DNA of 64,000 bases, taken from Synoicihabitans lomoniglobus (GTDB lineage Bacteria > Verrucomicrobiota > Verrucomicrobiia > Opitutales > Opitutaceae). How positions within the stretch are numbered: position 1 is the stretch's first letter; each line of letters starts with the position of its first letter. Positions 2,231 through 31,213 of this stretch are shown piece after piece. The notes beneath the pieces are model-generated. The model searched no databases and was not told the origin of the DNA. It saw nothing but the letters and a program-made list of their open reading frames with translations. The translations under genes and the position numbers were made by a program. The stretch is taken from the NCBI RefSeq assembly GCF_029023725.1, contig NZ_CP119075.1, positions 3,467,501-3,531,500 of the forward strand, written 5' to 3'.

Positions 2231-4855
2231 ATGAGCAAACTCTCCGGCCTCCGCACCCGCCTCCGGCGCGCGTTCCAGCGCCGCGCCATGGACCAACAAA
2301 TGCTTGATGAAATGAAAGATCATCTCGATCAGGAAACCGCCCGCCGCATCGCCGCCGGCGAAGACCCCGCCACCGCCCGCCGCCGCGCCGCCGCCGCCTT
2401 TGGCTCCGTCGACGCCCGCGTCGAAGAGGTGCGTGAAAATCGCCTGGGGTCGTGGTTGGAACAACTTTGGCAGGACCTGCGCTTCGCTGCTCGTCAACTT
2501 CGCAAATCTCCCGGCTTCACCCTCGTGGCCGTGGCCACCATTGCCTTGGGGGTCGGAGCGAACACCGCCATCTTCAGCGGAGTCGACGCCGTGCTGCTAC
2601 GGCCCTTGCCCTATCCCGACGCGGATCGATTGGTCCGCGTGTTTGAGACCGTGCCGAAGGGTGGTGGCAACGCCGTCTCCGGTGGTGCGTTCGTCGACTG
2701 GTATAAACATCAAACGCAGTTCGAGGGTCTCTTCATCGCGGCCGGTGAACAGGTCGATTTGACGGGATCCGGTGCACCGGAAAAAGTTTCCGCCGCCTCC
2801 GTTTCATCCGATTTTGACGAAGTGCTGGGACTGGCCCCCGTCGTGGGACGACATTTTACGGCGGCCGATGACGAAGTGGGCGGACAGAACAATGTCGTCA
2901 TGATCAGCGAGTCTTTCTGGCAGACACGATTCGCCGGTTCCCCCAACGCCATCGGGCAACTCATCACCTTGGACGGTGTCCCGCGGGAGATCATTGGTGT
3001 CGTGCCCCACGGCATGTGGCATAGCCGGGAGACCCAATTGTTTTTGCCCCTGGTGCTCACCCCCAACAACTACCGAACCTCCTTTGATGTGCACATGGGG
3101 CGGGTGTTCGGACGGCTGAAACCGGATGCCTCCCTCACCAGCGCGGTAACAGAACTCCGCGCCATCAAATCAAGTCTCGACGCCACCTACCCCGAATGGA
3201 TGCACACGTGGGGAGTCGGGGCAGAACCGATGCAGGACATGTTCGCCAAGAACCCCCGGCCGTTTCTGCTCATGCTGTCCGCGGCCACCGCGCTGGTTCT
3301 GCTGATCGCTTGCGCCAATGTCGCCAACCTGTTGCTGGCGCGGTCCGCCACCCGTCAACGGGAAATCGCCCTGCGCGCCGCTTTGGGTGCCAGCAGCGGA
3401 CGCATCGTTCGGCAAGTGCTGACCGAAAGCACGTTGCTCGCCTTGATCGGTGGTGGGGCCGGCCTGCTCGTCGCCTTCGCCAGTATTCGCGTATTGGCCA
3501 CCGCCAGCGCCGATCTGCTGCCCGCCACCATGGTGCCGCAACTCGACCTGCGCGTGTTGGGATTCGGCCTTTTTTCCAGTATTCTGATCGGACTTATTTT
3601 CGGGATCTTCCCCGCGCTGCGGGCGCGGAATCCCGATCTCAATCACAGCCTGAAATGCGGCACCAGCAACGCGACCGATGGCGGTCGATCCCGCAGCCAG
3701 TCCAGTCTCGTGATCGCGGAAATCGCCCTTACCGCGGTGCTGCTGGTGAGCACCGGACTGCTTGTGCGCGGCATGGTGCGCACGGTCACCGCCGATCCCG
3801 GCATCACCGCGGAAAACGTTTTAATGTTCGAGCTTACCCCTCCCTACTCCGGGGGTTATGCCAGCCCCACCCAACGGATTGAATTTATCCAGCGAGTGCG
3901 CTCTGAACTCCTGGCGGTTCCCGGTGCCGTCGCTGTCGCCAGCGCCGACGACCTGCCATTTGGGGACAGTGGCCAGGGTTACTTCATCAGTCGCGAGGAT
4001 GCCCCGGAAACCCGTCAGGACCGCACCGGCCGGATAAAGTATGTATCCCACGGATACTTCGATACCCTCGGCGCGCGCATCGTGCGTGGACGCGCCATCT
4101 CCTCCGCCGACAATCGCCTCGAGGCGCCGGATGTCATGGTCATCAACGAAACCATGGCGGGCCAACTCTTCGGTCCGGATACGGATCCATTGGGCAAACT
4201 CGTCCACGCCAAAGACCAACCGTGGGAAGTGGTGGGCGTCGTGTCCGACATCCGTATCGACTCTCTGACTACAGATCCGCAACCCACCTTCTTTGTGCCC
4301 CACACGGAATTCGTCTGGTGGTCGGGCTTCATCGTCCGCACCCAGGGAGATCCGGCCGCGATGCTGCCAGCACTTTCCGCCGCCGTGCATCACATCGACC
4401 CCAACCTGCCCTTGGCCCGTGTGCAGACGCTCGAACATGCCATGGGCGAAGCGCTCGGTCCGCAACGACTCACGCTCAATCTCATCGGCGTGTTCGCCAT
4501 CATGGCCCTTTCACTCGCGGCCATCGGGCTCTACGGGGTCATGGCCTTTGCGGTAGCCAACCGTCGTCGGGAACTCTCCATCCGTGTCGCTCTCGGTGCC
4601 GCCCGTGCCGACATCATGCAGCTCATCCTCCGCCACGGCGGACGCCTCCTGCTCATCGGCCTGGGTCTCGGCTTGGTCGCCGGTATCGGCGCCGCGCGCG
4701 TCGCCGCCAACCTCATGACCAATGTCTCCGCCACCGACCCGCTCGTCTTCATCGTCGCCGCCCTCCTCCTCGCCTTCGTCACCGCCCTCGCCTGTTACCT
4801 CCCCGCCCGACGCGCCGCCAAAGCCGACCCCATCCAGGCGCTGCGATCAGACTGA
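2231..4855 (+). CDS. ADOP-type ABC transporter permease
   Basis: Complete 874-residue inner-membrane protein. Residues 1-75 form the cytoplasmic permease prefix domain (LSGLRTRLRRAFQR ... AFGSVDARVEEVREN). A first transmembrane helix (about 94-112, TLVAVATIALGVGANTAIFS) leads into a MacB-like periplasmic domain. An FtsX block with LLIACANVANLLLARS lies near 355-375, then the whole module repeats and ends PARRAAKADPIQALRSD. The length fits the ADOP family. ATG at 2231 is chosen because the same start and first ~60 codons recur in the permeases at 5772 and 8510. The first ~190 bp are almost identical to those two genes while the remainder differs. Transport substrate and partner ATPase cannot be read from the sequence. 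Confidence 0.93.
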   Translation: MSKLSGLRTRLRRAFQRRAMDQQMLDEMKDHLDQETARRIAAGEDPATARRRAAAAFGSVDARVEEVRENRLGSWLEQLWQDLRFAARQLRKSPGFTLVAVATIALGVGANTAIFSGVDAVLLRPLPYPDADRLVRVFETVPKGGGNAVSGGAFVDWYKHQTQFEGLFIAAGEQVDLTGSGAPEKVSAASVSSDFDEVLGLAPVVGRHFTAADDEVGGQNNVVMISESFWQTRFAGSPNAIGQLITLDGVPREIIGVVPHGMWHSRETQLFLPLVLTPNNYRTSFDVHMGRVFGRLKPDASLTSAVTELRAIKSSLDATYPEWMHTWGVGAEPMQDMFAKNPRPFLLMLSAATALVLLIACANVANLLLARSATRQREIALRAALGASSGRIVRQVLTESTLLALIGGGAGLLVAFASIRVLATASADLLPATMVPQLDLRVLGFGLFSSILIGLIFGIFPALRARNPDLNHSLKCGTSNATDGGRSRSQSSLVIAEIALTAVLLVSTGLLVRGMVRTVTADPGITAENVLMFELTPPYSGGYASPTQRIEFIQRVRSELLAVPGAVAVASADDLPFGDSGQGYFISREDAPETRQDRTGRIKYVSHGYFDTLGARIVRGRAISSADNRLEAPDVMVINETMAGQLFGPDTDPLGKLVHAKDQPWEVVGVVSDIRIDSLTTDPQPTFFVPHTEFVWWSGFIVRTQGDPAAMLPALSAAVHHIDPNLPLARVQTLEHAMGEALGPQRLTLNLIGVFAIMALSLAAIGLYGVMAFAVANRRRELSIRVALGAARADIMQLILRHGGRLLLIGLGLGLVAGIGAARVAANLMTNVSATDPLVFIVAALLLAFVTALACYLPARRAAKADPIQALRSD

Positions 4856-4892
4856 ACCATCCCGCCACACCTTAAAAATCGTGAATTTCGCC

Positions 4893-5732
4893 ATGCGTCA
4901 CTACGCCCGCCTTGTGACCGCCGTGCTCCTGACCTCGTGCCTGATCTCGCCCTCGGCCACCGCCTGCACCATCCTCAGCGCCGTGGCGCCCGATGGCCAG
5001 GTCTGGACGGGCAACAATGAAGACGGTCCGCTCGACGTGCCCCTTTACCTCAACGTCTTTCCCCGGACCGACGACACCCGCTTCGGCTACTTCACGTTTA
5101 CTTATGATTCACCCCGAGCCGGCATTCAGGGCGGCATGAACGAGGCGGGTTTGACCTACGACTTTAATGCCCTGCAACAGCCTTATCCCTTGAAGGACCC
5201 GGCGCGGAGAAATCCATACCCCGGTGGGGATGATGCCATCCTCGGTCATTTGCTCGCCTCCGCCTCCACCACCGGGGAGGTGGTGCGTTTCTTTGAAAAC
5301 TACTGGTTCACCGAAGGATTCGAACGGGCCCAGATGCATGTGGCCGACAAACACGGCACCCTCGCCATCATCAGTCCCTCCGGTTCGCAGGTGTTCACGC
5401 GCGAAGAGACTTTGGTCACGACCAACTTCAATGCCATCACCGGCAACAACGGCTCCAGGTGCTGGCGCCACCCCGTCGCCACCCGCCTGCTGGCCGAGTC
5501 AGAGGCAGGTCTCGCCACCATCACCGAGGTCTGCCGCCGCACCGCCCAGAACGGCGACGGCTGGGGCACGCTCTATTCCAACGTGCAGAACCTGACCACC
5601 AGCGAAATCTGGATCTACCCCGGACAAAAATTCGACCAGCCCCTCAAAACCACCCTCTCGACCCTGATCACCGCCGGCCGCCAGTCCTATCGTATTCAGG
5701 ATTTGGCTACTACCCTGCCTCGTTCCGAATAA
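4893..5732 (+). CDS. Secreted linear amide C-N hydrolase (Ntn/choloylglycine hydrolase-like)
   Basis: Predicted 279-residue exported enzyme. A signal peptide (MRHYARLVTAVLLTSCLISPSATA) is followed directly by C-T-I-L-S, so cleavage would expose an N-terminal cysteine, the nucleophile of the choloylglycine hydrolase / penicillin V acylase Ntn family. Family-like motifs follow in order: WTGNNEDG, GGMNEAGLTYDFNAL, and TNFNAITGNN near the middle. It should hydrolyse a linear amide bond, but the substrate (bile-salt-like, acyl-homoserine lactone, peptide) is unknown. ATG at 4893 starts the signal peptide best; GTG at 4881 is an alternative. The gene sits 37 bp after one ADOP permease and 39 bp before the next, in the same direction, so it may be co-expressed with them. 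The usual arginine of the GRNxD motif is replaced (GNNED). Confidence 0.8.
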   Translation: MRHYARLVTAVLLTSCLISPSATACTILSAVAPDGQVWTGNNEDGPLDVPLYLNVFPRTDDTRFGYFTFTYDSPRAGIQGGMNEAGLTYDFNALQQPYPLKDPARRNPYPGGDDAILGHLLASASTTGEVVRFFENYWFTEGFERAQMHVADKHGTLAIISPSGSQVFTREETLVTTNFNAITGNNGSRCWRHPVATRLLAESEAGLATITEVCRRTAQNGDGWGTLYSNVQNLTTSEIWIYPGQKFDQPLKTTLSTLITAGRQSYRIQDLATTLPRSE

Positions 5733-5771: not shown

Positions 5772-8483
5772 ATGAGCAAACTCTCCGGCCTTCGCACCCG
5801 CCTCCGGCGCGCGTTCCAGCGCGGCGCCATGGACCAACAAATGCTCGATGAAATGAAACACCACCTCGACGAAGAAACCGCCCGCCGCATCGCCGCCGGT
5901 GAAGACCCCTCCACCGCCCGCCGCCGCGCCGCCGCCGACTTCGGCTCCGTCGACGCCCGCACCGAAGAGGTCCGCGAGCGGCGTTGGGGAACGTGGGTCG
6001 AGTTGTGGTGGCATGACTTCGTTCAAGCCGTCCGTTCACTGCGTCGTGACCACCGGTTTTCTGTTGTGGTTATCGTCACCTTGGCACTGGGAATCGGCGC
6101 GTCGACCTCCGTCTACAGCGTGGTCGACCGCGTGCTGCTTAATCCCGTGCCAGGACCGCATGCCGACAGTATCATGCAGGTCGGCGAGTGGTCATACTAT
6201 TCCGAAAATCCCGCCCCACAGCCTTCAGGTATCACGCCTCCGATATTGCAGGCATTGCTAGACAATTCGGATGCCTTTCCCGCCTTCACTTGGTGTGATC
6301 GTTCGACTCAGATGTCAGACCGTGAAGACGGCTTCGTAACCACGGTTTTCGGGTCACGCGTGCCCCCGGGGTTCTTCCGTTTCTTCGGCGTCCAACCCGT
6401 TCTTGGTCGCACTTTCACCGACGACGAGGCCCTCAACTACGACGCCCGTGAACCACCGCGCGACAGCGCTATCGTGCTCAGTCACGCATGGTGGAAATCG
6501 CGCTTTCAGGGCGATCCGACGATCATCGGTCAAACGGTTCGGATCGGCGATCGGCTGCTGACCGTCACCGGAGTCATGCCGAACTATTTTCAATTTCCAT
6601 CTCGCTCCACCCAATATTGGCTTCCCGCCCAACCTGTTCGGCCTCGCCCCAATCATATGCGAGCTGCCAACACCATCGCGCTACTCAAGTTGCCGCCTGA
6701 CGGTAGGCTCGCCCGCCTCGAGGTGTTACTCGACACGATCGCCGCCCAACTGCAACAGGACGAGACGCTGGCTTCGACCTACCGGAGCGTTTGGCAGAAG
6801 AACACCGATGGCTTGCAACTTTGGGTGCGACCGTTGCATGAAGCGCTGCAAGGACGCGTCTACAGCAGGGAATTCCCCCGTCTGCGCGAAACATTGAACG
6901 GCCTGTCGCTGGCAATCGCACTGGTGCTGTTGATCGTCTGCGCCAACACCGCCCATCTCACTCTCGCTCGCACGGAGCGCCGCCGCCGCGAACTGGCGGT
7001 GCGTGCCGCGCTCGGAGCTCGCCGAGGCCGCCTTATCCGCCAATTACTGCTGGAGAGCACTGTGCTCGCAGTGGTCAGCGGCGTCGCCGCGCTGGTCCTC
7101 ACCCACTGGGGCCTTCACCTCTTGGCCAGTCTCAATCAACTCCCCCAGTTGCGTCCCATCGAGCTGGATGGACGCGCCTTGGCCATCGCGTTTGCCGTGA
7201 CGGCTTTGACGGTCCTGTGTTTCGGTTTGTGGCCCGCTTGGCGCGGCAGTCACACACCGATCAACGCACACCTCAAGAACAGCGGCAACACCGCTACCTT
7301 GAGCATCGGTGCCCGCCGTCAGGGACGTTTGCTGGCCAGCCTGGAAGTCGCGCTCGCTTTAATCCTGCTGAGTGGAGCAGGTCTGATGATTCGCAGTGTA
7401 ATCGAGCAACTGCGAGCGCCTCCAGGTTTCGCTTCCGATCACCTATTGTCGGCCGTCGTTTCCTTTTTGCCTACAGGCGGGTTTTCGCCAGACGCCGATA
7501 CCCGCACCCACATCCGGGTGAGCACCGCCATGGATCGCCTTGCCGCGCTTCCCGGAGTCGAAGCAGTGGGCAGCTACAAACTCACCGGGTTGCAACTCCC
7601 CGCCGAAAACGAGACCGGCGACGTGCTCGGATTTACGGGCCGCAGCTACATCAGCTTGAATCAACGTGATTTTTTCCAAGTCGCGCAGGCTCCATTGCTC
7701 GGAGGGCGTTTCCTCACCTCGGCGGATCAGGGTGATGAAAACTCCGCCGTGGTGATCAACGAAACCATGGCCCGTGACTTTTGGCCCAACCAAGATGCCA
7801 TGGGTCGAACCTTCCGCTACACCAACGGCGGCGCGCGCACCTTTCAGGTTGTCGGGGTGGTCGGAGACGCCCGACTGCTCGGAGTCGATGAGCCGGTCAC
7901 CCCCCAATTCTTTCGCCCGCTGAATGAGGCGCCCTCGTGGGGTATGCCCAACCGATTCCTGCTCCGCACATCGCAAGACCCCGCGTTGTTGGCGACCGCC
8001 GTTCGCGCCGCGCTGCGTGAGGTCGACGCCGACATGCAGTTGCCGCACATTGAGACCATGACCTCTGCCCTCTATGACTCCACTCAGGCCCGACGCACAT
8101 ACCGCAACTACCTCTGTGTTTTCGCCGTTGCGGCGGTCGTGTTGGCGGCGCTCGGCATTCATAGCGTGCTCGCCTATTCCGTCGCGCGACGCACCCGCGA
8201 GATCGGTATCCGCATCGCGTTGGGCGCTGATCAGCGGCAGGTGGTCGCCATGATTGTCGGCGAAGGCGGACGTGTCGTAATGGCTGGCATTGCTCTCGGG
8301 CTTGTCGGGGCGCTTGCACTCGGCCACCTCATTCGCGCTCAACTCTACGGCGTAGCACCGTCGGACGCGTGGGTTCTCGCGATGACGCCCATCCTGCTCG
8401 CCACGATCGCCCTGATCGCATGCTGGCTCCCCGCCCGCCACGCGGCACGCATCGACCCCTTGGCCGCGCTGCGCACCGAATAA
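5772..8483 (+). CDS. ADOP-type ABC transporter permease
   Basis: Complete 903-residue permease with prefix domain (1-75), membrane helix (about 96-114, FSVVVIVTLALGIGASTSVYS), MacB-type periplasmic domain, FtsX block (LLIVCANTAHLTLARTERRRRELAVRAALGARRGR), second periplasmic domain and final FtsX block (REIGIRIALGADQRQVVAMIV ... PARHAARIDPLAALRTE). It is slightly longer than its neighbours and more divergent after residue 75 (HDFVQAVRSLRRDHRF instead of the usual DLRFAARNLRKSPGF), yet its first ~190 bp are nearly identical to the genes at 2231 and 8510. The next permease begins 26 bp downstream. Orphan exporter-type permease; substrate unknown. Confidence 0.92.
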   Translation: MSKLSGLRTRLRRAFQRGAMDQQMLDEMKHHLDEETARRIAAGEDPSTARRRAAADFGSVDARTEEVRERRWGTWVELWWHDFVQAVRSLRRDHRFSVVVIVTLALGIGASTSVYSVVDRVLLNPVPGPHADSIMQVGEWSYYSENPAPQPSGITPPILQALLDNSDAFPAFTWCDRSTQMSDREDGFVTTVFGSRVPPGFFRFFGVQPVLGRTFTDDEALNYDAREPPRDSAIVLSHAWWKSRFQGDPTIIGQTVRIGDRLLTVTGVMPNYFQFPSRSTQYWLPAQPVRPRPNHMRAANTIALLKLPPDGRLARLEVLLDTIAAQLQQDETLASTYRSVWQKNTDGLQLWVRPLHEALQGRVYSREFPRLRETLNGLSLAIALVLLIVCANTAHLTLARTERRRRELAVRAALGARRGRLIRQLLLESTVLAVVSGVAALVLTHWGLHLLASLNQLPQLRPIELDGRALAIAFAVTALTVLCFGLWPAWRGSHTPINAHLKNSGNTATLSIGARRQGRLLASLEVALALILLSGAGLMIRSVIEQLRAPPGFASDHLLSAVVSFLPTGGFSPDADTRTHIRVSTAMDRLAALPGVEAVGSYKLTGLQLPAENETGDVLGFTGRSYISLNQRDFFQVAQAPLLGGRFLTSADQGDENSAVVINETMARDFWPNQDAMGRTFRYTNGGARTFQVVGVVGDARLLGVDEPVTPQFFRPLNEAPSWGMPNRFLLRTSQDPALLATAVRAALREVDADMQLPHIETMTSALYDSTQARRTYRNYLCVFAVAAVVLAALGIHSVLAYSVARRTREIGIRIALGADQRQVVAMIVGEGGRVVMAGIALGLVGALALGHLIRAQLYGVAPSDAWVLAMTPILLATIALIACWLPARHAARIDPLAALRTE

Positions 8484-8509
8484 CAATCCAACGACACCCC
8501 GCCTGCCCC

Positions 8510-11137
8510 ATGAGCAAACTCTCCGGCCTTCGCACCCGCCTCCGGCGCGCGTTCCAGCGCGGCGCCATGGACCAACAAATGCTCGATGAAATGAAACACC
8601 ACCTCGACGAAGAAACCGCCCGCCGCATCGCCGTCGGCGAAGACCCCGCCACCGCCCGTCGCCGCGCCGCCGCCGACTTCGGCTCCGTCGACGCCCGCAC
8701 CGAAGAGGTGCGCGACGCCCGCTTCGGTGCCTGGGCCGAACACTTTTGGCAGGACCTGCGTTTCGCCGCCCGCAACTTGCGCAAATCCCCCGGTTTCACC
8801 GCGGTCGCGGTGCTCACCCTGGCGATCGGCATCGGGGCCAACACCGCCATCTTCTCCGTCGTCTCCGGCCTGCTGCTCAATCCCCTGCCCTACGCCGATT
8901 CCGACCGCATCATGGTCATCGACGAGGCCCCGGTTCCCGGCGGCACCGGCGGTTCTTGCGGCGGCACTTTCCTGGAGTGGCAGGAAAACCAGATCCACTT
9001 CGAATCCATGGCGGCCATTCACACGATGACTCACACCATGACCGGCCGCGGCGATCCGCAGATGGTCAACGGTTGGGAGGTCACGCCGCAGTATCTCAGT
9101 CTGTTCGGGTTGCGCACCGCCCTGGGTCGTGACTTCCGCCCCGAGGACGACGTTGCCGGGGCCAACGAACACATCGTGATCCTGAGCCACCGCTTCTGGC
9201 AGGAGACCTTCAACGGTGACCCGGGCGTCGTGGGTGACTTCGTGAACTTCGGCGGCGAGGGCTATCAAATCATTGGCGTGCTGGACCCCGACGCGCTGCT
9301 CGATCCCGACGTCCAGTTCCTGTCGCCCACCGGCATCCTCAACGACGAGCAAAAGCAGACGCGCAACTACCACTACGTCACGACCACCTTTGCCAAGCTC
9401 GCCCCGGGGGCCACTCCCGCCGCCGCCGCCGCCCAACTGACCACCGTCAAACAGGGCTTCAATCACCTCTACCCCGACCGCAAGAAAGACTGGACGGTGA
9501 CCGTCACCTCGATGCAGGAGAGTATGTTCGGCGGCGCCCGCCAACCGCTCAACCTCCTGCTCTGGTCCGTCGGAGTCGTGTTGCTCATCGCCTGCGCCAA
9601 CGTTGCCAATCTGCTCCTCGCCAAGACTTCCGCCCGGTCGGGCGAACTCGCGCTGCGTCTCGCTCTCGGCGCGACCAAGGGCCGCATCATTCGCCAAATG
9701 CTCACGGAGAGCCTGTTGCTGGCCGTGCTGGGAGGTGCCGCCGGCATCGCGGTCGCGGCGGCGACCATCAATCCGTTGGTGGTTTTCGCCGGCGTAAACG
9801 ATCTCCAGCGCATCGAGATCGGACTCGATGGCGGTGTGCTCGCCTTCGCCCTCGGCGCTTCGTTGCTCACCGGTTTCGTCTTCGGTCTACTGCCCGCCTT
9901 GCGCGCGGCCGGCCCCAACGTGGGAGATGCCATCAAAGACGGCGGTCGCAGCGGCAGCGCCGGCAGACGCCGCCACCTGCAATCCATCCTCATCATCGCC
10001 GAAACCGCTCTCACTGTCGTGCTCCTCGTGGTGGCCGGGTTGCTCATGCGCAGCTTTCTCAACGCCGCCAACCAGAACCTGGGTTTCGAAACCGACGGCG
10101 CCCTGACCTTCCGCCTGAACCAAAACGGCGACACCGCGCAGACCGTCGAAAAACGGCTGCAGTTTGCCGACCAGATCCTGGCCGAGCTCCGCACCATTCC
10201 CGGCGTGGAAAGCGCCGCGTTCATCAGCAACATGCCCATGAACGGCAACCGCTTCTACGGAGACTCCATCCAGCGCGCCGATCGCATCGAGCCCGACAAC
10301 AACATCATCGCCGGCTTCGATGCCGTCTCGCCCGGCTATTTCCAAACCATGCGCACCCCCTTGCTGCGAGGCCGCGACCTCACCGCCGCCGACAACCGCA
10401 TCGACGCGCCCAAGGTCTTGATCGTCAACCAGTCCGTCATCGATCGCTTTTTCGACGCCGACGAGAACCCCCTCGGGTATCACATCCAATTCAAGGGCGA
10501 GCCCCACGAAATCGTCGGCGTGGTCGCCGACGCCCGCCGCTTCGCCGTCGACGGTCAGCCCTTTCGCCAGGTTTACCTGCCGCTGGCGCAATTCCCCTGG
10601 AGCACCCACTACGTATTGCGCACGCAACTACAGCCCGCGTCCCTCGCCGCCGCCGTGCGTCAGGCCGTGCAACGGGTGAATCCCAACCAGCCGATTCACC
10701 AACTGCGCACCCTGGAAGACATGGCGGATGAAACGCTCAACTTCCGCACCATGATGCTCACCCTGCTCAGTCTCTTCGCCGGCGCCGCCCTGTTGCTCGC
10801 TTGCGTGGGCATCTACGGCGTCATGGCTTACAGCGTCAATCAACGCACCCGCGAGATGGGCATCCGCCTCGCCCTCGGGGCGGCGGCGCGCGATGTCATC
10901 GCCCTGATTCTGCGGGACGGGTTGAAAGTCATCGCCATCGGACTGGCCATTGGCGCCATCGGGGCCGGCTTTGCCTCCCATCTGCTGGAAAGCCAGCTCT
11001 ACAATGTCGACCCCCTCGATCCCGCCACCTTCGTGATGGTGTCCCTCATCCTCGTCGCGGTCGGTGCCACCGCCTGCTTCCTCCCCGCCGTCCGCGCGTC
11101 CAAGACCGATCCCATGCAATCCCTGCGCGCCGAATGA
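8510..11137 (+). CDS. ADOP-type ABC transporter permease
   Basis: Complete 875-residue permease. ATG at 8510 is chosen because it matches the conserved MSKLSGLRTRLRR start of its paralogues; the frame stays open upstream, but that stretch overlaps the end of the preceding gene. Layout: prefix domain (1-75), helix (about 94-112, TAVAVLTLAIGIGANTAIFS), periplasmic core, FtsX block (LLIACANVANLLLAKTSARSGELALRLALGATKG), second core, final FtsX block (REMGIRLALGAAARDVIALIL) and the terminal DPMQSLRAE. It is the last of the first permease run; a short gap and an opposite-strand gene follow. No ATPase partner is visible. Confidence 0.93.
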   Translation: MSKLSGLRTRLRRAFQRGAMDQQMLDEMKHHLDEETARRIAVGEDPATARRRAAADFGSVDARTEEVRDARFGAWAEHFWQDLRFAARNLRKSPGFTAVAVLTLAIGIGANTAIFSVVSGLLLNPLPYADSDRIMVIDEAPVPGGTGGSCGGTFLEWQENQIHFESMAAIHTMTHTMTGRGDPQMVNGWEVTPQYLSLFGLRTALGRDFRPEDDVAGANEHIVILSHRFWQETFNGDPGVVGDFVNFGGEGYQIIGVLDPDALLDPDVQFLSPTGILNDEQKQTRNYHYVTTTFAKLAPGATPAAAAAQLTTVKQGFNHLYPDRKKDWTVTVTSMQESMFGGARQPLNLLLWSVGVVLLIACANVANLLLAKTSARSGELALRLALGATKGRIIRQMLTESLLLAVLGGAAGIAVAAATINPLVVFAGVNDLQRIEIGLDGGVLAFALGASLLTGFVFGLLPALRAAGPNVGDAIKDGGRSGSAGRRRHLQSILIIAETALTVVLLVVAGLLMRSFLNAANQNLGFETDGALTFRLNQNGDTAQTVEKRLQFADQILAELRTIPGVESAAFISNMPMNGNRFYGDSIQRADRIEPDNNIIAGFDAVSPGYFQTMRTPLLRGRDLTAADNRIDAPKVLIVNQSVIDRFFDADENPLGYHIQFKGEPHEIVGVVADARRFAVDGQPFRQVYLPLAQFPWSTHYVLRTQLQPASLAAAVRQAVQRVNPNQPIHQLRTLEDMADETLNFRTMMLTLLSLFAGAALLLACVGIYGVMAYSVNQRTREMGIRLALGAAARDVIALILRDGLKVIAIGLAIGAIGAGFASHLLESQLYNVDPLDPATFVMVSLILVAVGATACFLPAVRASKTDPMQSLRAE

Positions 11138-12656: not shown

Positions 12657-14165
12657 ATGTCTCGTGGCGCCATTGGCCTGTCCACGGTCCTTGGTCTCGT
12701 GTTCGCCACCAACCTCATCTTCGCGGCTGCGACCGATTCGAAGAGCGCCGCCACCCCGCAGGTTCCCGAGTATCCGAAAGACTGTGACACCATCGCCCCG
12801 CCCGTCGGCTTCACGTTTCCGAACGTGAGCTCCGCGCTCCCGTTTGATTTGGGCTCCCTGCGCGCGACCGTCGAAACGACAGCGCCCGCTCCGGCAAAAA
12901 TGTCGTCCACTGCCGGTCACGCCGCCGACCACGATTGCGGCGTTTTCGAAACTCAAAAACAGTTCGACCTGTTTTCCTGGGCCACCTTCATCGGGCTCAA
13001 CTGGCCGGCCGATTCCTCCGGCAATCCGATCTCCGGCGATATCGGAACTCAACCCACCTCGCCAAGGGTGTGGGAATACTACCTCTCGCCTTCGCAAATT
13101 TTTAAGGCGAACGGCGTCGCTCCGGATCCCTGGGGAACGCCGGAGAACGAGGCGCGCACCCTGAGCGCGATCAGCAAGCACACCGAGATCCTCGACGAGG
13201 TGGACGAAGCGTTCTTCAACCTCGAAACCCCGCTCCCGCCCATCACTGATCTCAACAACGAATATGTGCGTTACGAGATTCGGATCAACAAAGCGGAATA
13301 CGACTACATCGTGACCAACACGCTGTATAATACCGAGGGCCAGCAGACCTTCATCAACAACGGAAACACCGTCAGTTTCCCCAGCGGAAAACTCCCCGTC
13401 GGCCCGACGCCCGGCCAGCGCGGCGCCATGGAACTAAAGGTCGCCTGGAAACAAATGGGGGCCGGCGACGATCCCTCAAAATTCTACACCATCACCCCGA
13501 TCGTTGAAGAGCCGTTCAACAAACCCCACACGATTACCGGCAAAACCTACGGCCTCGTTGGCATGCATATCATGGTGCGCACCGAGAGTGCTCCCGAATG
13601 GGTCTGGGCGACGTTCGAACACGTCGACAACGCGCCCATCATGGATCTACGCACCTCGGTTCCGGACAAATTCAAGGCCAAGGGCTCTTACAGCTTCTGG
13701 AACAAAGCAGGCACCCACTCCTTCGGCGGTTTCGATCCCGCTGCATTTTCGACCCTCGATGCGATGAAATCGGCCCCAAATTACTATCAACCGAAGAACG
13801 AACGCCAATTGTCTCAGATCACCAAAGTGATCACCGACAACAACGCCGTGTCCGACTCGAAATGGACCAAGAATCTCAACGCCACCATGCAGGGCAAACT
13901 CGCCGGCACGGTCTGGGCCAACTACCGCCTCATCTCCACCCAATGGCCCGTGAATCCCGGCACCAAACCCGCCGGGAATCCCGCCCCCGTAAGTCTCGGT
14001 AATCCCGTGCTCGAAACTTACATGCAGGTGAACGGTAGCTGCATGAACTGTCACGCCGGTGCCACCTACGGTAACGCGCAGACCGCCGCCAATAACGCCA
14101 ACTTCAGCTTCATGCTGCAGCGCGCGAAGAGCGCGAAGAGCAAGACAACCTCCCCTCACAACTAA
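12657..14165 (+). CDS. Exported c-type cytochrome family protein, first gene of MNIO operon
   Basis: 502 residues from ATG at 12657, which starts a clear signal peptide (MSRGAIGLSTVLGLVFATNLIFAA). A single heme c attachment motif C-M-N-C-H is at residues 462-466, close to the C-terminus, within GSCMNCHAGATY. The ~420 residues before it are globular without a domain I can name; WVWATFEHVDNAP and VWANYRLISTQWP are the most family-like stretches. The protein should be periplasmic and hold one covalent heme, suggesting electron transfer. It lies only 15 bp upstream of the Tat-exported cysteine-rich gene and on the same strand as the MNIO and DUF2063 genes, so it is likely a functional part of that operon. 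An upstream in-frame ATG at 12597 would spoil the signal peptide. Confidence 0.72.
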   Translation: MSRGAIGLSTVLGLVFATNLIFAAATDSKSAATPQVPEYPKDCDTIAPPVGFTFPNVSSALPFDLGSLRATVETTAPAPAKMSSTAGHAADHDCGVFETQKQFDLFSWATFIGLNWPADSSGNPISGDIGTQPTSPRVWEYYLSPSQIFKANGVAPDPWGTPENEARTLSAISKHTEILDEVDEAFFNLETPLPPITDLNNEYVRYEIRINKAEYDYIVTNTLYNTEGQQTFINNGNTVSFPSGKLPVGPTPGQRGAMELKVAWKQMGAGDDPSKFYTITPIVEEPFNKPHTITGKTYGLVGMHIMVRTESAPEWVWATFEHVDNAPIMDLRTSVPDKFKAKGSYSFWNKAGTHSFGGFDPAAFSTLDAMKSAPNYYQPKNERQLSQITKVITDNNAVSDSKWTKNLNATMQGKLAGTVWANYRLISTQWPVNPGTKPAGNPAPVSLGNPVLETYMQVNGSCMNCHAGATYGNAQTAANNANFSFMLQRAKSAKSKTTSPHN

Positions 14166-14180
14166 CTCCCACCTCACGCC

Positions 14181-14894
14181 ATGTCTCAACCCACCCCCTC
14201 CCCGGACGGCGAGTCGCGCCGCAAATTCATCGGATCCCTTGGGGCCGCCGCCCTGGCCGGGGCCGCGCTCCCAGTTCGCGGCGCCGGCGCCAGCGCCGAA
14301 CAGACCGTCGATGCTCCTGCCCATGACGACCAGCACATCTGCATGGGTCTCAACACCAAGACGACCGTCGTCGCCGGTATCAGCTACGCGCCCGGTGAAT
14401 GTCCCGCCACTAATGTCGATTCCCACGGTTGCGCCGGCGGCAACAGCTGCGCCAATCTGGGCGGCTGCGGCACCGGCGACTACGGCCGCCAATACTGGAT
14501 CACCGATAACGCCTGCGGCACAACCAGCCCACACTGGAACGGCACCGGCGGCTGCGGCGCACCGATTGGCCACGGCAATTCCGGCTTCGTTTCCACTCAG
14601 CTCAACAGCGCCGCTCCCGACGAGATTCCGGGCAAACCGGGCCAGTATTACAGCAACGCCTTCATCGGCAAACCCGTCTGGAACATTGCCCGCTCCCGTT
14701 TTGAAAAGAAGATGGTGATCGCGGGCAAATCCTTCGGTAAACCCGCCAGTCTGCCGAGTGCCCTGATCGCCAACGCCTGGAGCGGCAGCGGTCACTACGA
14801 TCCCAACGGTCTGCCCGAACCTTACCCTACACCCATGCCGCCCAAGCTGCCCAAACCGCCGAAGGTTCCGAAGGCCCCCAAACCGACTTCGTAA
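14181..14894 (+). CDS. Tat-exported seven-cysteine protein, candidate MNIO-modified RiPP precursor
   Basis: 237 residues. The N-terminus is a twin-arginine signal (ESRRKFIGSLGAAALAGAAL, residues 11-30). Seven cysteines follow at 54, 74, 84, 90, 96, 112 and 125, the densest part reading HGCAGGNSCANLGGC (82-96). There is then a W/F/K-containing segment (WNIARSRFEKKMVIAGKSFG, 167-186) and a proline/lysine-rich tail (PPKLPKPPKVPKAPKP). The next gene, 30 bp downstream, is an MNIO oxidase; such enzymes modify cysteines in exported precursor peptides (methanobactin, bufferins). Position, cysteine spacing and export signal make this the likely substrate, but the modification itself is inference. It is far longer than methanobactin precursors. 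It could instead be an unmodified metal-binding protein. Confidence 0.7.
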   Translation: MSQPTPSPDGESRRKFIGSLGAAALAGAALPVRGAGASAEQTVDAPAHDDQHICMGLNTKTTVVAGISYAPGECPATNVDSHGCAGGNSCANLGGCGTGDYGRQYWITDNACGTTSPHWNGTGGCGAPIGHGNSGFVSTQLNSAAPDEIPGKPGQYYSNAFIGKPVWNIARSRFEKKMVIAGKSFGKPASLPSALIANAWSGSGHYDPNGLPEPYPTPMPPKLPKPPKVPKAPKPTS

Positions 14895-14924
14895 CGGGCC
14901 CGCGACACCCGACTCCACCTCACC

Positions 14925-15851
14925 ATGGCCAATCGATTTGATCTCCCCAACCTCGGTCTGGGCATCGGACTGCGCAGTCCGCACTTCCCCTACATTCTGG
15001 AGCATTGGCCCCAGGTCGATTGGTTCGAGGTCATCTCCGAAAACTACATGGACAGTCGCGGCAAACCCCGCGCGGTCCTCGACCAAATCGCCGAGCGCTA
15101 CCCCTTGGTGATGCACGGGGTATCGCTTTCGATCGGCAGCTCCGACCCGCTCGACTTCGACTACTTGGCCAAACTCAAAGCTCTCGCGGCCGAGGTTTCC
15201 CCGGTTTGGGTGTCGGATCACTTGTGCTGGACCGGTATCGCCGGACTCAACACCCACGATCTTCTACCCATGCCCCTCACCGAGGACGCACTCGCGCACA
15301 CCGTCGAGCGTATCCGCATCGTGCAGGACTACCTCGAACGCCCCCTCGTGCTCGAAAACCCCAGCACCTATCTGGAGTTCGAGGCCTCCACCATGCCCGA
15401 CGCGGAATTCCTCGGTCGCATGGCCGCCGAGGCCGACTGCGGCATACTTCTTGATGTGAATAATATTTACGTCTGTGCCCGCAACCACGGCTGGGACCCC
15501 GACGCCTACATCCGCACCATCCCGGCCGATCGCATCATCCAATTTCACCTCGCCGGACACGAGGACTGCGGCACCCACATCATCGATACCCACAATACCA
15601 ACGTCATCGACGAGGTGTGGGAACTCTACCGCTCCGCGCACCTTCACACCGGTGGCGACGGCGCCGCCACCCTGCTCGAATGGGATGCCGACATCCCGCC
15701 CTTCCCGGTCCTCATGGCCGAAGTGGCTCAGGCCAAGGACTTCATGACCGTTGCCCGCACTCAACCACGAGCATCCTCCCCCGCGGCCGCCGCGCCCAAA
15801 GCCGACGGGCGATCATTCCCGCATCCGTTGCACATCATGCCCACGGAATGA
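14925..15851 (+). CDS. MNIO (DUF692) multinuclear non-heme iron oxidative enzyme
   Basis: 308-residue TIM-barrel enzyme of the DUF692/MNIO family, which includes MbnB, TglH and bufferin synthases. Conserved stretches in order: [15 protein letters not shown] (11-25), [10 protein letters not shown] (33-42), [10 protein letters not shown] (63-72), VSDHLCW (96-102), VLENPSTY (142-149), [10 protein letters not shown] (174-183), QFHLAGHE (206-213), DTHN (221-224) and LEWD (251-254). By analogy with MbnB, the likely iron ligands are H64, H99, E144, D177/N180, H208, D221, H223 and E252. Expected role: O2-dependent oxidation of cysteines in the precursor encoded just upstream. The C-terminal ~25 residues are an Ala/Pro-rich extension. 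The stop overlaps the next start (ATGA), so translation is coupled to the DUF2063 partner. Confidence 0.92.
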
Positions 15852-16501
15852 TCCCCTTCGAAAGTCTGCAACGCTGGCTCCTCGCGGCCATCCAACAGCC
15901 TCAGAGCAAGGACGTTCGCGAAATCGAATCCGTGGTCGCCAACGCCAACGGACGACTGCCACCCGCCGCCCGCATCGGCATCTACGCCGCCTCCTTCCAC
16001 GGCCGCCTCATCCAGTGCTTGGAATCTGAATACCCCGTGCTGCGCCACGCCCTCGAGGAAGATCTCTTCCATCAATTTGCGACCGGCTACCTGCAGACCT
16101 TCCCGCCCACCACCTACACCCTTACGCGCCTCGGTGAGAACTTCCCCCGCCACCTCCGCGAAACCCGACCGGACAACGAAGCGGAGCTCTGGCCCGAGTT
16201 CATCATCAACCTCGCCACCCTCGAACGCACCTTCTTCGAAGTTTACCACGCCGAAGGCCACGAGAAGACCACCCCGAAACCCGCCACCGACCCGGTCGCC
16301 ATCGCCGCCGAACCCTGGACCCGCACGCTCCACCTCGCCTTCCCGGTTCACGACTATTTTCCCGCCGCGCGCCTCCACCTCAAGGAGCCCGAAATTCACG
16401 CCGCGCCCGACATCCCCGCCCCCCGCTCCACCACCGTTCTGATCTACCGCCGCAACTTCCAAGTCCGGCTTCGAGAGATCGCCGACAACGCCGGGCAATA
16501 G
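15848..16501 (+). CDS. DUF2063 partner protein of the MNIO enzyme (short C-terminus)
   Basis: 217 residues, starting within the stop of the MNIO gene (ATGA overlap). The N-terminal half is a typical DUF2063 domain: [12 protein letters not shown] (8-19), [33 protein letters not shown] (42-74), [27 protein letters not shown]. The second half has [18 protein letters not shown] and stops 7 residues later. In known systems (MbnC, TglI, BufC) the partner binds the precursor leader and forms a complex with the MNIO. Relatives I recall continue beyond the YRR-x-F-x-VR motif for roughly 30 more residues, so the end may be truncated; no continuation is evident in the other two frames. Confidence 0.85.
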
Positions 16502-17198: not shown

Positions 17199-17531
17199 AT
17201 GAAATCAGACAAAACTGAACTTCTGCAGGGCACGCTCGATATGCTGATCCTGAAGGCCCTCCAACTCGACGCGATGCACGGTTTCGGTCTCTCCCAACGC
17301 CTTCGCCAAATGTCGGCCGAAGTGTTTCAGGTGGAGATGGGCTCGCTCTATCCCGCGCTCTGCCGCCTGGAAAAGAAGGGCTGGATCAAAGGCAAATGGG
17401 GCGTCTCCGAAGCCAACCGTCGCGCTCGCTACTATTCGCTGACCGCCGCTGGTCGCCGCCAATTTGAAACGGAGAAGTCCCACTGGGCGCTCCTGTCGAA
17501 CACCGTCAACACAATGCTCGACGCCACCTGA
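17199..17531 (+). CDS. PadR family transcriptional regulator
   Basis: 110-residue winged-helix regulator with the family signature near the N-terminus: ELLQGTLDMLILKALQLDAMHGFGLSQRLRQMS (6-38). The recognition and wing segment VEMGSLYPALCRLEKKGWIKGKWGVSEANRRARYYSLTAAGRRQFE (45-90) follows, with a short C-terminal dimerisation helix. AAAGG sits 9 bp before ATG 17199. PadR genes of this subtype are commonly found beside ADOP-type permease genes in Acidobacteriota and Verrucomicrobiota. Here the next gene downstream is such a permease (18054), so it likely represses that gene and perhaps the cluster at 1-11 kb. Confidence 0.92.
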   Translation: MKSDKTELLQGTLDMLILKALQLDAMHGFGLSQRLRQMSAEVFQVEMGSLYPALCRLEKKGWIKGKWGVSEANRRARYYSLTAAGRRQFETEKSHWALLSNTVNTMLDAT

Positions 17532-18053: not shown

Positions 18054-20672
18054 ATGCGCTGGTGGTCCTCCTTCTCGTATTCGCTGAAATCACTTTTTAC
18101 CCGAAAACAATGGGACGCCCAACTCGCCGAGGAGGTGCGCACTCACGTGGAGATGGCGACCGAGGCCAACATCGCCCAGGGTATGTCGCCCCGCGAGGCG
18201 CGCTTCGCCGCGCTGCGTGAATTTGGCAACGTCGTCGCGACTCAGGAGCGCACCCGCGACGAACGCGGCTGGGTGTGGTTGGAACAATTGTGTCATGATA
18301 CTGGATACGCCTTTCGCAACCTGCGCAAATCCCCCGGGTTCGCCCTTGTCGTCATCTTCACCCTCACCGCCGGCATCGGTTGCAACACGGCGTGCTTCAG
18401 CCTGCTCAACAGTCTGTTGCTACGCCCGCTCGCCTACCCCAACTCGGACCGCATCGTCTTCCTTGCGGAGTCCCCTCCCGGCGAAATCAGTTACGACAGC
18501 AACGGTGCCTCCTTCGCCCGGTGGCAGGAAAACGACGACCTGTTTGAACAGCTGGGCGGCTATCATTTACGCGGGACAACCCTCACCGGCCGCGACCATC
18601 CCCGTCCGGTCCACCTGACCGAAACGACCGCCGGACTGTTCGAGATATTCAGCGCGCGTCTTGCGCAGGGACGGGGCTTTCATCGCTCAGAATACCAGCC
18701 GGGCCGGGGTCACGTTGCGGTCATCAGTCACGAATTTTGGCAACAACAGCTGGGCGGCGATCTGGACATCCTCGGCGCGCAACTCGTTTTCGACGGAGTC
18801 GGACACGAAGTGATCGGCGTGCTCGAACCCTGGGCGTTTCCCTACGACAACGCGATTTTCGTCCCCTCCGATGTGCTCCTCAACGAGGCCAAACGCGCCC
18901 CCGGAAGCGACTACGATATGTCGACCTTCGCCCTCCTGAATCCCGACGTCGATCGTGGCCCGGCCCAGACGCGACTCCAGAGCACACGCGGGGCCCATCC
19001 AGACTCCTACCTGCCGGAACAGCGCGATTGGCGCGATACGATCCAGAGCTGGCGCGACGCCAGCTACGGCACCTACAAACCCGCCTTCATGATGACCGCC
19101 CTGGTGGTGGCTGCCATCCTGCTGATCGCCTGTGTCAACATCACCAACCTCGCCCTCGCCCGCAACCGCGCCCGGTCGGGCGAGATCGCACTTCGCCTGG
19201 CCCTCGGTGCCTCGACCAGCCGCATCGTGCGGCAGCTCCTCACCGAGACCATGCTGTTGGCCACCCTCGGCGGTCTGCTGGGCGCGGTCACCGGGGTCGC
19301 GCTGTTCCAGGGATTCACCCGGTGGACCAACATGGACATGCTGCGTTTTGTTGAAACCAGCCTCGACTACCGGGTGCTGCTTTTTGCCACGGCCGCCACC
19401 GTGTTGTCCGGTTTGGTCTGCGGCCTCCTGCCGGCCCTCCGTTGCGCCCGACCGGGTATCAACACCCATCTCAAGGAAGGCCAGCAGGGCGTGGCCACGG
19501 GTAAACGCCGTCGTCTGCAGTCCGGCTTGGTCATCGCGGAATGCGCCTGCACCGTCGCTCTGCTCATCATGGCGGTCCTCCTGCTGCGCAGCCTGCAGAA
19601 CGTAGCCGCTTCCGACCCCGGATTCACCCGGGAAGGGGTGCTCTACTTTAGTCTCTCGGCCCCCGCCGAACGCACCCCCGACGCCGACAGCAGCGCCCGC
19701 TTCACCGACGAGGTGATCGCCCAGCTGCACCGTATTCCCGGCGTCGCTGCCGCCGGTGCGACCTCGGCCGTGCCGATGAGCAAGGTTGAATACCGGACCG
19801 AAGCGGTGCGCCGGATCACTCAGGATCTGGACGCGGTGGGCCTGACAGTCGGGATCGACAGCGTTTCACCCGGCTATTTCAACACGCTACAAATTCCACT
19901 CCTGCGAGGACGCCCCCTCACGGCCGCGGACAATCAAGCGGCGGCGCCCCGCGCGGCCCTCGTCAACTCCCGCCTGGCGGACCTTTTGTTTGAAAACGAA
20001 CCCGCCCTCGGCAGCCCGATTGTCTGGCGCGGCGAACAATGGGAAATCGTCGGCATCGTCGGCGATACGGCGCGCTACCACTTGGGCCATGATCCCATCC
20101 CTCAACTGTTCGTGGCGCAGGCCCGGCTTTCCTTACCGATGAGCTACGTTCTGCGGGCCCACGTCGATCCGATGAGTTTGATTAAATCCGTGCGAGCCGC
20201 GGTCGAAGAAGCCCACCCCGGGCTCGCTCTGACCAACCTTCACCGGCTTTCAGATCGGGCCGATGGCTCGATGGGGCTACGCCGAATTTTCCTCAGCATT
20301 TTCGGGCTGTTTGCGTGCGTCGGACTGGCGCTGGCGGCCATGGGCGTTTTTGGTCTCATGACCTATACCGCCGCGCAACGCATGCGTGAGATGGGGATCC
20401 GCATCGCCCTGGGCGCGACCACTCGCAACATCATGAACCTCATCCTCGGCGACAGCCTGCGGCTGATCGGCCTCGGTCTGCTCGCCGGAACGGTTCTGGC
20501 CGCGGTCGGTTCCCGACTGCTGCAGTCCCAGCTCTACGCCATCAACCACTTCGACCCCGTGAGTTATCTCCTCGCCGTCGCCACCCTCGCGGCCACCGGC
20601 ACGCTCGCCAGCCTTCTCCCCGCCTGGCGTGCCGCCCGCGCCGATCCCATCGCGGTGCTACGCGCCGAATAA
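18054..20672 (+). CDS. ADOP-type ABC transporter permease
   Basis: Complete 872-residue permease. Its prefix domain (1-75, SLFTRKQWDAQLAEEVRTHVEMATEANIAQGMSPREARFAALREFGNV) is clearly different in sequence from that of the four upstream permeases. The rest is standard: first helix FALVVIFTLTAGIGCNTACF (near 97-116), periplasmic core, FtsX block (LLIACVNITNLALARNRARSGEIALRLALGASTSR), duplicated module, terminal PAWRAARADPIAVLRAE. It is the permease nearest the PadR gene and probably its regulatory target. No ATPase nearby. A small secreted-protein gene begins 15 bp downstream and is likely in the same transcript. Confidence 0.92.
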   Translation: MRWWSSFSYSLKSLFTRKQWDAQLAEEVRTHVEMATEANIAQGMSPREARFAALREFGNVVATQERTRDERGWVWLEQLCHDTGYAFRNLRKSPGFALVVIFTLTAGIGCNTACFSLLNSLLLRPLAYPNSDRIVFLAESPPGEISYDSNGASFARWQENDDLFEQLGGYHLRGTTLTGRDHPRPVHLTETTAGLFEIFSARLAQGRGFHRSEYQPGRGHVAVISHEFWQQQLGGDLDILGAQLVFDGVGHEVIGVLEPWAFPYDNAIFVPSDVLLNEAKRAPGSDYDMSTFALLNPDVDRGPAQTRLQSTRGAHPDSYLPEQRDWRDTIQSWRDASYGTYKPAFMMTALVVAAILLIACVNITNLALARNRARSGEIALRLALGASTSRIVRQLLTETMLLATLGGLLGAVTGVALFQGFTRWTNMDMLRFVETSLDYRVLLFATAATVLSGLVCGLLPALRCARPGINTHLKEGQQGVATGKRRRLQSGLVIAECACTVALLIMAVLLLRSLQNVAASDPGFTREGVLYFSLSAPAERTPDADSSARFTDEVIAQLHRIPGVAAAGATSAVPMSKVEYRTEAVRRITQDLDAVGLTVGIDSVSPGYFNTLQIPLLRGRPLTAADNQAAAPRAALVNSRLADLLFENEPALGSPIVWRGEQWEIVGIVGDTARYHLGHDPIPQLFVAQARLSLPMSYVLRAHVDPMSLIKSVRAAVEEAHPGLALTNLHRLSDRADGSMGLRRIFLSIFGLFACVGLALAAMGVFGLMTYTAAQRMREMGIRIALGATTRNIMNLILGDSLRLIGLGLLAGTVLAAVGSRLLQSQLYAINHFDPVSYLLAVATLAATGTLASLLPAWRAARADPIAVLRAE

Positions 20673-27191: not shown

Positions 27192-27937
27192 ACCACCCCA
27201 CCCCCGATTCCAAACAACTCTCCATATTCCACCCTCGGTTCATCCGAGATTCCGCAGTTGGATTTTACAGAAGGCAACGAAGAGCACGAAGCTGGAACGA
27301 GTTGCAGGCGATTATGGGCATCAATTCATTCACCCGTAAGGTGAGTTGCATGCCATGCAGTTTAATCGTTTTAACTCACTTTATTACATCGCTTTGTTAA
27401 CTTTGTTACCTTCTGTGAACTGCGTTAATTAGGTTCATACCAGCCCGAAACCTGAAACGATTTTCGGGTTCTCCCCCGCGTTTAACCATAAAGAGCGCCC
27501 TTGAATCTCGATCCTCTGAGCTTCCCCAATTTTCATGCCCAAAACTGGCTCAAATTGTCGGGGAAAATCTAGTCCTGCCGTCCGTCCCCATCGCAGCCGC
27601 CGCATCAGTCAAGAGTCAAACAATGTCCCGTTTTGGCTGTCCTGTCCCGTTTTGGCTGTCCCAAGCGATCATTGACTGGACTGACAACCCCCGCACGGCA
27701 GTGAGTCTAAGCAATTTTGTCGTTAAGTCGTCGCGGTATGGATATTTTGTGCGTTCGACCCCTTCTGAAGGTCCCCTCAATGCACTTAAAATCAAACATA
27801 ATCATATTATTCTAGGCAATTACCCTTATTTACTTCCGTAATCAAACTCCATTCTTGCCAATAATTTGCGGGTCAATAGGAGACTAGTCACGGCCCCCAC
27901 TACCCTCAAAAGACCTCAATAACTTCCATGCTAAAAT
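27192..27937. other. Transition from GC-rich to AT-rich DNA, no supported gene
   Basis: Base composition drops sharply from about 27300 onward. The region contains an ACAGAAGGCAACGAAG word (about 27269-27285) and its inverse CTTTGTTACCTTCTGT (27401-27416), which may pair. Near 27625-27660 the phrase TGTCCCGTTTTGGCTGTCC is partly duplicated in tandem. An open frame of 72 codons at 27623-27841 spans it but has no recognisable features. This is the left edge of a probable acquired island. Confidence 0.5.
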
Positions 27938-29497: not shown

Positions 29498-29501
29498 ATT
29501 T

Positions 29502-30722: not shown

Positions 30723-31186
30723 TCATGACAAAAAGTCGATTCATCTCTACACTTTTCATAATTTGGTTGGTTAGCTTAATTGTTATTCTATATAGTTTTC
30801 TTGTTCTTCCAAATTCCGGAGAAAACCAACCGTTCAGATCCGACTCACTGACAGAAGCAGTTGTTTCAATCGGAGGCCTTTGGCTACCACCCCTCACATG
30901 CTTCATCGGGCTATGGTTCCCTTCATTAGAAAACCATGGGGGCGTTTCAAACGCGTCACCAAAGTTCAATAAAACTGCTGCCTTCGCCGGCGCAGCTCTA
31001 ACCTTGCTGTATGTCATATGTATCATTTATATGTCGATTAACACAGTAACCGACACGTATGACTTCCAAACTATGGATTTACCGGAAGGCGAGTCCTTTG
31101 AAGAGCGTATACAAAACATATCACGGTTGGGATTACTTTTCAACCCACTCGGCATGGCTCCTGTGCTTTGGGCGACCAGAGTTTGA
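30719..31186 (+). CDS. Membrane hypothetical protein, AT-rich island
   Basis: 155 residues starting inside the stop codon of the preceding gene (ATGA). Three to four hydrophobic segments: FISTLFIIWLVSLIVILYSFLVL (7-29), VVSIGGLWLPPLTCFIGLWF (about 47-66), AAFAGAALTLLYVICIIYMSI (about 86-106) and a C-terminal LLFNPLGMAPVLWATRV. No family recognised. Third gene of the AT-rich set and probably acts with the two secreted proteins, but only position says so. Confidence 0.6.
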   Translation: MIMTKSRFISTLFIIWLVSLIVILYSFLVLPNSGENQPFRSDSLTEAVVSIGGLWLPPLTCFIGLWFPSLENHGGVSNASPKFNKTAAFAGAALTLLYVICIIYMSINTVTDTYDFQTMDLPEGESFEERIQNISRLGLLFNPLGMAPVLWATRV

Positions 31187-31213
31187 GCGAAGCAACGGTG
31201 TCCGGATATAGAG

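Follow-up and report, generated by a model that had tools for sequence, protein, structure and literature searches.

What does a MNIO enzyme with a DUF2063 partner make of a large, cysteine-rich protein bearing a twin-arginine translocation (Tat)-type export signal, and why is a c-type cytochrome encoded with them? The question is raised by a four-gene operon of Synoicihabitans lomoniglobus that lies in a 64,000-nucleotide stretch of contig NZ_CP119075.1 (the window); operon coordinates are positions within that stretch. Re-reading the frames bore out the arrangement originally predicted, including strand, coordinates and gaps: four genes on the + strand, in the order cytochrome, Tat protein, MNIO and DUF2063 partner, separated by 15, 30 and -4 bp.

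12657..14165, + strand: c-type cytochrome-like protein of 502 amino acids, with a Sec-like signal and a single C-terminal CMNCH motif.
14181..14894, + strand: predicted MNIO substrate of 237 amino acids, with a Tat-type signal (SRRKF), seven cysteines, a W167..R171..FE helix and a Pro/Lys-rich tail.
14925..15851, + strand: MNIO enzyme of the MbnB_TglH_ChrH family and MNIO_BufB equivalog (PF05114, NF050167).
15848..16501, + strand: DUF2063 partner (PME type 1) of 217 amino acids (PF09836), without the C-terminal winged-helix part of the RRE domain.

Judged by homology, the operon represents a branch of bufferin-2/captophorin-type systems. As in bufferin-2 (BufA2/BufB2/BufC2; NF050166, NF050167; the proposed captophorin class), an exported, Cys-rich precursor is followed by a BufB-type MNIO and then by a DUF2063 protein. 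The Tat protein is very probably a MNIO substrate, and the function tentatively favored here is that of a MNIO-modified, metal-holding periplasmic protein that is exported by Tat and exchanges electrons with the co-encoded cytochrome.

Used alone as a query, the Tat protein retrieved no relatives from 223 genomes of the order, the genome contig set or plasmids, and a PDB sequence search returned a single non-significant hit (E=0.75), which covered the region of the Tat signal. Because sequence alone gave nothing, the family was found by reading MNIO neighbors: the 80 MNIOs closest to the window enzyme were taken from 84,980 species and the genes upstream of each were read, these loci being the nearest ones and not a random sample. 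A precursor family is encoded directly upstream of most of these 80 enzymes, across many phyla. A profile built from 27 MNIO-upstream proteins, with the window protein and its nearest relative left out, recovers the window protein at E=1.9e-15; 500 shuffled copies and the other window frames (except the gene's own open frame) gave no reported match. With a profile of the C-terminal part beyond the conserved cysteine region, the window protein is still found at E=6e-5. The Tat signal and the seven cysteines originally predicted are present (positions 54, 74, 84, 90, 96, 112 and 125), and six of the seven (C54, C84, C90, C96, C112 and C125) are invariant in a 30-sequence alignment, together with H82, W167 and R171.

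Some family members score on the BufA2 model, with 61.9 bits for the L039 protein (cut-off 60) and 29.5 bits for that of L021. Because the independent profile finds the window protein while these relatives score on the BufA2 model, the Tat protein is, as far as sequence can place it, a divergent branch of the bufferin-2 (BufA2-like) superfamily and not a new kind of precursor. Compared with bufferin-2, the window precursor has a Tat signal (assigned by motif) instead of a Sec or lipoprotein signal, is 237 amino acids long, has seven cysteines instead of 6 or 12 and no Cys-Lys motif, and carries the extra W..R..FE helix and the Pro/Lys tail. The operon as a whole differs in lacking DoxX, in placing a cytochrome first and in encoding a partner without the C-terminal RRE part.

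Among 289 genomes of the phylum, 27 have a MNIO match (25 above cut-off), and six give a match to the precursor-family profile. Five of these six matches sit 0.1-0.4 kb upstream of the genome's only MNIO; the remaining one is weak (E=7e-4) and is interrupted by two stops. The original prediction had named homologues regularly occurring without a MNIO as evidence against it; all five credible copies adjoin one. The S. lomoniglobus genome (5.93 Mb, one contig) holds exactly one PF05114 match and one DUF2063 match, so the operon is the only MNIO system there, and the profile search found no second precursor-family match in it. A structural or accessory role for the Tat protein, with the true MNIO substrate a peptide encoded elsewhere, is thus very unlikely. 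It would fit the indirect nature of the modification evidence and the failure of the Tat protein to match any precursor model, but a family with conserved cysteines directly upstream of MNIO genes across phyla, next to the genome's single MNIO and with no second precursor in sight, argues against it. Of the earlier proposal, the substrate assignment is thus well supported, and the novelty of the precursor is not. Elsewhere in the family, the single MNIO of L024, L026 and L045 is adjoined by two precursor-family genes.

The enzyme matches PF05114 (E=1.3e-106, 356.1 bits, cut-off 25) and the NCBIfam model NF050167 MNIO_BufB (353.7 bits, cut-off 310). Its metal-ligand and base set (H64, D98, H99, E144, D177, H208, D221, H223, E252 and D254) is conserved at 99-100% in 91 MNIOs, and the His/Asp/Glu/Asn set at 97-100%. 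D254 corresponds to the proposed catalytic base FonB-Asp249, an assignment made by motif from PMC13097082. In partner-dependent MNIOs, the residue beside this Asp (FonB-Phe250) varies with those that surround the modified Cys and is Asp in Cys-Lys enzymes (PMC13097082), a relation between selectivity site and Cys motif that is a correlation. In the window enzyme the position is Ala255 (LLEWD254-A255) instead of the Asp of bufferin-2; Opitutales Cys-Lys enzymes read LLEWDD in 9/9 cases, and Lys follows 59 of the 79 cysteines in their precursors. None of the Tat protein's seven cysteines is followed by Lys, nor is any of the 15 counted when the precursor of L019, a Verrucomicrobiia metagenome-assembled genome (MAG), is added.

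The Tat protein sequence also lacks the Lys-Cys repeats and EGKCG motif that mark oxazolin substrates, and the absence of a DUF2282 domain (no Pfam match, E<=1) separates it from bufferin-1. Since Cys-Lys motifs, a DUF2282 domain and Lys-Cys repeats are all missing, the predicted substrate is outside the three precursor categories of PMC13097082. Methanobactin (MbnA/B/C) shares a MNIO of the same enzyme superfamily, but on the MbnB model the window enzyme reaches 51.5 bits against a cut-off of 325, and its predicted substrate is a long exported protein. The original prediction expected oxazolone/thioamide-type products; for partner-dependent MNIOs, 5-thiooxazole is now the expected product, with copper binding (PMC13097082).

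A phylogeny of 68 MNIOs joins the window enzyme to that of L019 at a support of 100/100. With moderate support (90/95), this pair clusters with 20 MNIOs for which the substrate domain either forms one protein with a PF12902 ferritin-like domain or is encoded next to such a protein. A split of 96/97 sets the window enzyme clearly apart from 6-Cys enzymes of the family to which the window belongs; a 91-row tree was also built. Descent of the operon from the Opitutales 6-Cys bufferin system of the same family was considered and rejected, as the enzymes of that system are only 48-52% identical and occupy a well-supported portion of the tree apart from the window enzyme.

The partner has an intact DUF2063 domain (PF09836, E=1.1e-18, 67.8 bits, cut-off 27.2). 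It ends about 55 amino acids before its relatives, both in the window (217 amino acids) and in L019 (202 amino acids), so that the last RRE helices are absent; the L086 partner is also short. A frameshift was rejected as the reason, because no remnant of the missing RRE part was found downstream of the partner gene in any frame. The loss of the C-terminal RRE part shared by both cytochrome operons offers a natural test of what purpose that domain serves. In two alphaproteobacterial MAGs (L079:1610-3280 and L087:6001-7650), the MNIO and its DUF2063 partner apparently form one fused open reading frame.

L019 carries the four genes in identical order, and its first gap is also 15 bp. Because order and gap recur in this unrelated contig, the operon goes beyond a chance arrangement; and because it is flanked by different genes in the two genomes, it is a self-contained unit. 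Amino-acid identity between the two is about 63-67% for the cytochrome, 62% for the substrate, 79% for the MNIO and 53% for the DUF2063 protein. Nonsynonymous divergence (dN) is 0.29, 0.31, 0.17 and 0.42, respectively, and synonymous divergence (dS) is near-saturated at 2.0-2.8; on these sequence comparisons, purifying selection acts on all four genes. A promoter scan of the operon region gave no match, and terminator matches were no more numerous than in shuffled sequence.

An RRxF motif near the N-terminus, taken as a Tat-type signal, occurs in 36 of 73 precursors, including the planctomycete and verrucomicrobial members that were read (often NRRDFNKL...) and most acidobacterial precursors; it occurs in 0/10 Opitutales 6-Cys precursors and in none of the ferritin-type precursors. 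TatC is encoded in the window genome. Tat routing as originally predicted is thus backed by the SRRKF motif, but it is not peculiar to this locus: among planctomycetes and Verrucomicrobia the closest relatives have it as a rule, and among acidobacterial relatives it is common. By motif, the Tat-type signal is a feature of the branch and not of the locus.

The Tat route carries folded proteins. Since export follows folding, modification before export becomes directly testable in this branch. The MNIO field treats exported substrates as Sec-routed, and about half of the nearest precursors share the Tat-type signal of the window protein. A large MNIO survey reports Sec signals only, does not contain the word Tat, and asks in its discussion how export waits for completed modification (PMC12452194); a literature search found no paper joining MNIO and twin-arginine in the relevant sense. 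One acidobacterial Tat-type precursor (L047:5448-5924) consists of >12 near-identical SCKGEKA repeats.

The cytochrome has a signal-like N-terminus and one CMNCH at residues 462-466, the CxxCH originally noted for the first gene. Its start may lie at an in-frame TTG (12639) instead of the ATG at 12657, because the L019 homologue begins MKKP.... No Pfam, NCBIfam or PDB sequence match was found for it. Among seven homologues, 54 alignment columns including the CxxCH are invariant, and the AlphaFold model built from these seven sequences is of low confidence (pLDDT 52) and has no fold match.

The original prediction allowed that the cytochrome serves the MNIO as a redox partner. Electron donation to the MNIO in catalysis would fit the shared operon and the need of MNIOs for a mixed-valent iron centre (PMC13419390). 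Such a role in the cytosol is nevertheless scarcely credible: the cytochrome has a Sec-type signal and the MNIO and DUF2063 proteins have no export signal, c-type heme is attached outside the cytoplasm, and most MNIOs have no cytochrome gene nearby.

The pairing of cytochrome and MNIO is kept in the L019 operon, but it is rare, and the cytochrome family occurs mostly without a MNIO. Among the 80 nearest MNIO loci, the cytochrome shares the operon in one (L019) and is divergent in one more (L086, Bacteroidota), where a homologue with a CxxxCH variant is transcribed away from a ferritin-precursor-MNIO-DUF2063 cluster. The family is present in 14 of the 80 MNIO-bearing genomes, a count for which the L019 and L086 cytochromes were themselves part of the search profile, and it is MNIO-linked in 2 of these 14; a standard place for the cytochrome in this MNIO clade was rejected on that ground.

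These counts bear on a strong rival explanation, in which the modified protein is a plain bufferin-type sponge for copper or another metal and co-transcription is all that ties the cytochrome to it, for instance because one stress induces both. This is possible, if somewhat doubtful. Among known relatives, the closest are bufferins/captophorins, which buffer metals (PMC12452194, PMC13097082), the enzyme scores above the MNIO_BufB equivalog cut-off, and most relatives lack the cytochrome. On the other side, two independent genomes keep the cytochrome first, with the 15-bp gap and under purifying selection, a divergent copy adjoins a related cluster in L086, and no Cys-Lys motif of the bufferin-2 type is left (0/7 Cys).

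The neighbors of cytochrome-family genes elsewhere suggest what the protein does. Where the neighbors were read, FAD enzyme and LodA genes adjoin it in L165 and L169 (with a tyrosinase also in L169), PQQ-dehydrogenase-like proteins in L170 and L181, and VioB/ferritin-like proteins in L174; several copies, for example in L166, L167, L175 and L178, have no such redox-enzyme neighbor. Because GMC, LodA/FAD, tyrosinase, PQQ-like and VioB/ferritin-like proteins are among these neighbors, the family appears to carry electrons for exported or redox enzymes. A second family copy in the window genome, at about 5.80 Mb and far from the operon (L011:5142-6485 and 2793-4940), has a GMC oxidoreductase as same-strand neighbor. 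In L172, L173, L174, L180 and L181, the cytochrome family adjoins an unnamed family of 600-700 amino acids (SYLxYPRLHFSG...) with a weak VioB match in L174.

The relatives of the enzyme may also point toward redox proteins. A PF12902 ferritin-like (VioB-type) gene is present at 25 of the 80 nearest MNIO loci, with substrates that lack an export signal. Substrate and ferritin-like domain form one protein in 12 of the 80 (L036, L050, L069, L070, L076, L077, L080, L082, L085, L088, L089 and L098), and the substrate lies beside the PF12902 gene in L051, L062, L064, L072, L074, L075, L078, L084, L086, L090, L092, L096 and L097. Precursors of the window and ferritin types have in common a CMGLN motif, a long spacer after GGCG, another before W..AR..FE, and the helix formed there, features that agree with the grouping of the enzymes at 90/95. 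Unlike the signal-less substrates of those clusters, fused or adjacent to a ferritin-like protein, the window substrate is predicted to be Tat-exported and has a cytochrome as its companion. The MNIO survey makes no mention of ferritin (PMC12452194), and a literature search found no paper joining MNIO and ferritin-like proteins.

The cytochrome and the ferritin-like fusions together suggest that redox proteins, as well as metal buffers, may make use of MNIO chemistry. In its bolder form, MNIOs would also make redox proteins, the modified cysteines forming a metal or organic redox center that works with a cytochrome here and serves a ferritin-like oxidoreductase, often fused, in the sister clade; we regard this as rather unlikely.

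A still less probable reading makes the modified Tat protein, with a MNIO-made organic or metal cofactor, a catalytic periplasmic oxidoreductase acting with the cytochrome and laid out like quinohemoprotein amine dehydrogenase, in which a cytochrome subunit and a small, Cys-rich modified subunit are encoded with modifying enzymes. The operon would share with that enzyme and with the LodA/LodB cysteine tryptophylquinone (CTQ) oxidases a modified redox protein and a dedicated modifying enzyme, and homologous cytochromes adjoin LodA and an FAD enzyme in L165 and L169. The repeated proximity of the cytochrome family to enzymes whose redox cofactors are bound or formed from the protein itself, namely LodA CTQ oxidases and PQQ-like, GMC and tyrosinase proteins, would fit, as would the fusion of the sister clade's substrate domain to ferritin-like proteins in 12/80 loci. 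However, neither LodA nor a quinohemoprotein subunit is encoded in the operon, and the likeness is one of layout. No enzyme fold is predicted for the Tat protein, whose AlphaFold model (30 sequences, pLDDT 52) is too weak to name a fold; Foldseek with the AlphaFold models gave no fold match (best E=1.3), and there are no substrate-processing genes nearby. Modified-cysteine heterocycles are not known to serve as redox cofactors.

The favored function, a metal-holding protein that exchanges electrons with the cytochrome, can be set out as a sequence of steps. Within the cytoplasm, the MNIO, acting with the DUF2063 protein, would oxidize some or all of the seven cysteines, by homology probably to 5-thiooxazoles. 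Modification and metal binding may yield a compact protein that is obliged to leave by Tat, a route that would avoid export ahead of modification. In the periplasm, the mature protein would hold copper or a similar metal on its modified cysteines. Electron exchange with the Sec-exported cytochrome could then switch the redox state of the bound metal or, as the partners of the cytochrome family suggest, relay electrons from a redox reaction. Homology and motif speak for cysteine modification and Tat export as likely early steps, and the neighboring genes for a possible electron transfer. The redox link is drawn because a cytochrome is present in the L019 operon and divergent in L086, the enzyme is near the ferritin clade, and the cytochrome family lies beside oxidoreductases.

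Several observations weigh against this account. The Tat protein matches neither BufA2 (NF050166, up to E=1) nor DUF2282 in Pfam, and the L019 substrate likewise has no NF050166 match. The cysteine region of the substrate is modeled at very low confidence and shows no apparent catalytic fold. Tat assignments were made by the RRxF motif only, no copper-related or regulatory gene was identified within the operon, the ferritin grouping of the enzyme has moderate support from a bootstrap that had yet to converge fully, and the linkage in 2/14 genomes suggests that the cytochrome is perhaps an occasional passenger.

FtsX/MacB-type permease genes flank the operon on both sides (window 8369-11137, 17199-17531 and 18054-20672), one of them with a PadR-like regulator, and appear unrelated to it. 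Further downstream, positions 27500-32550 form an A+T-rich island (GC about 40% vs 62%) that looks like a recent insertion; it encodes a PKD-repeat-like protein, the products of two unknown genes and, at 31214-32548, a transposase-like protein.

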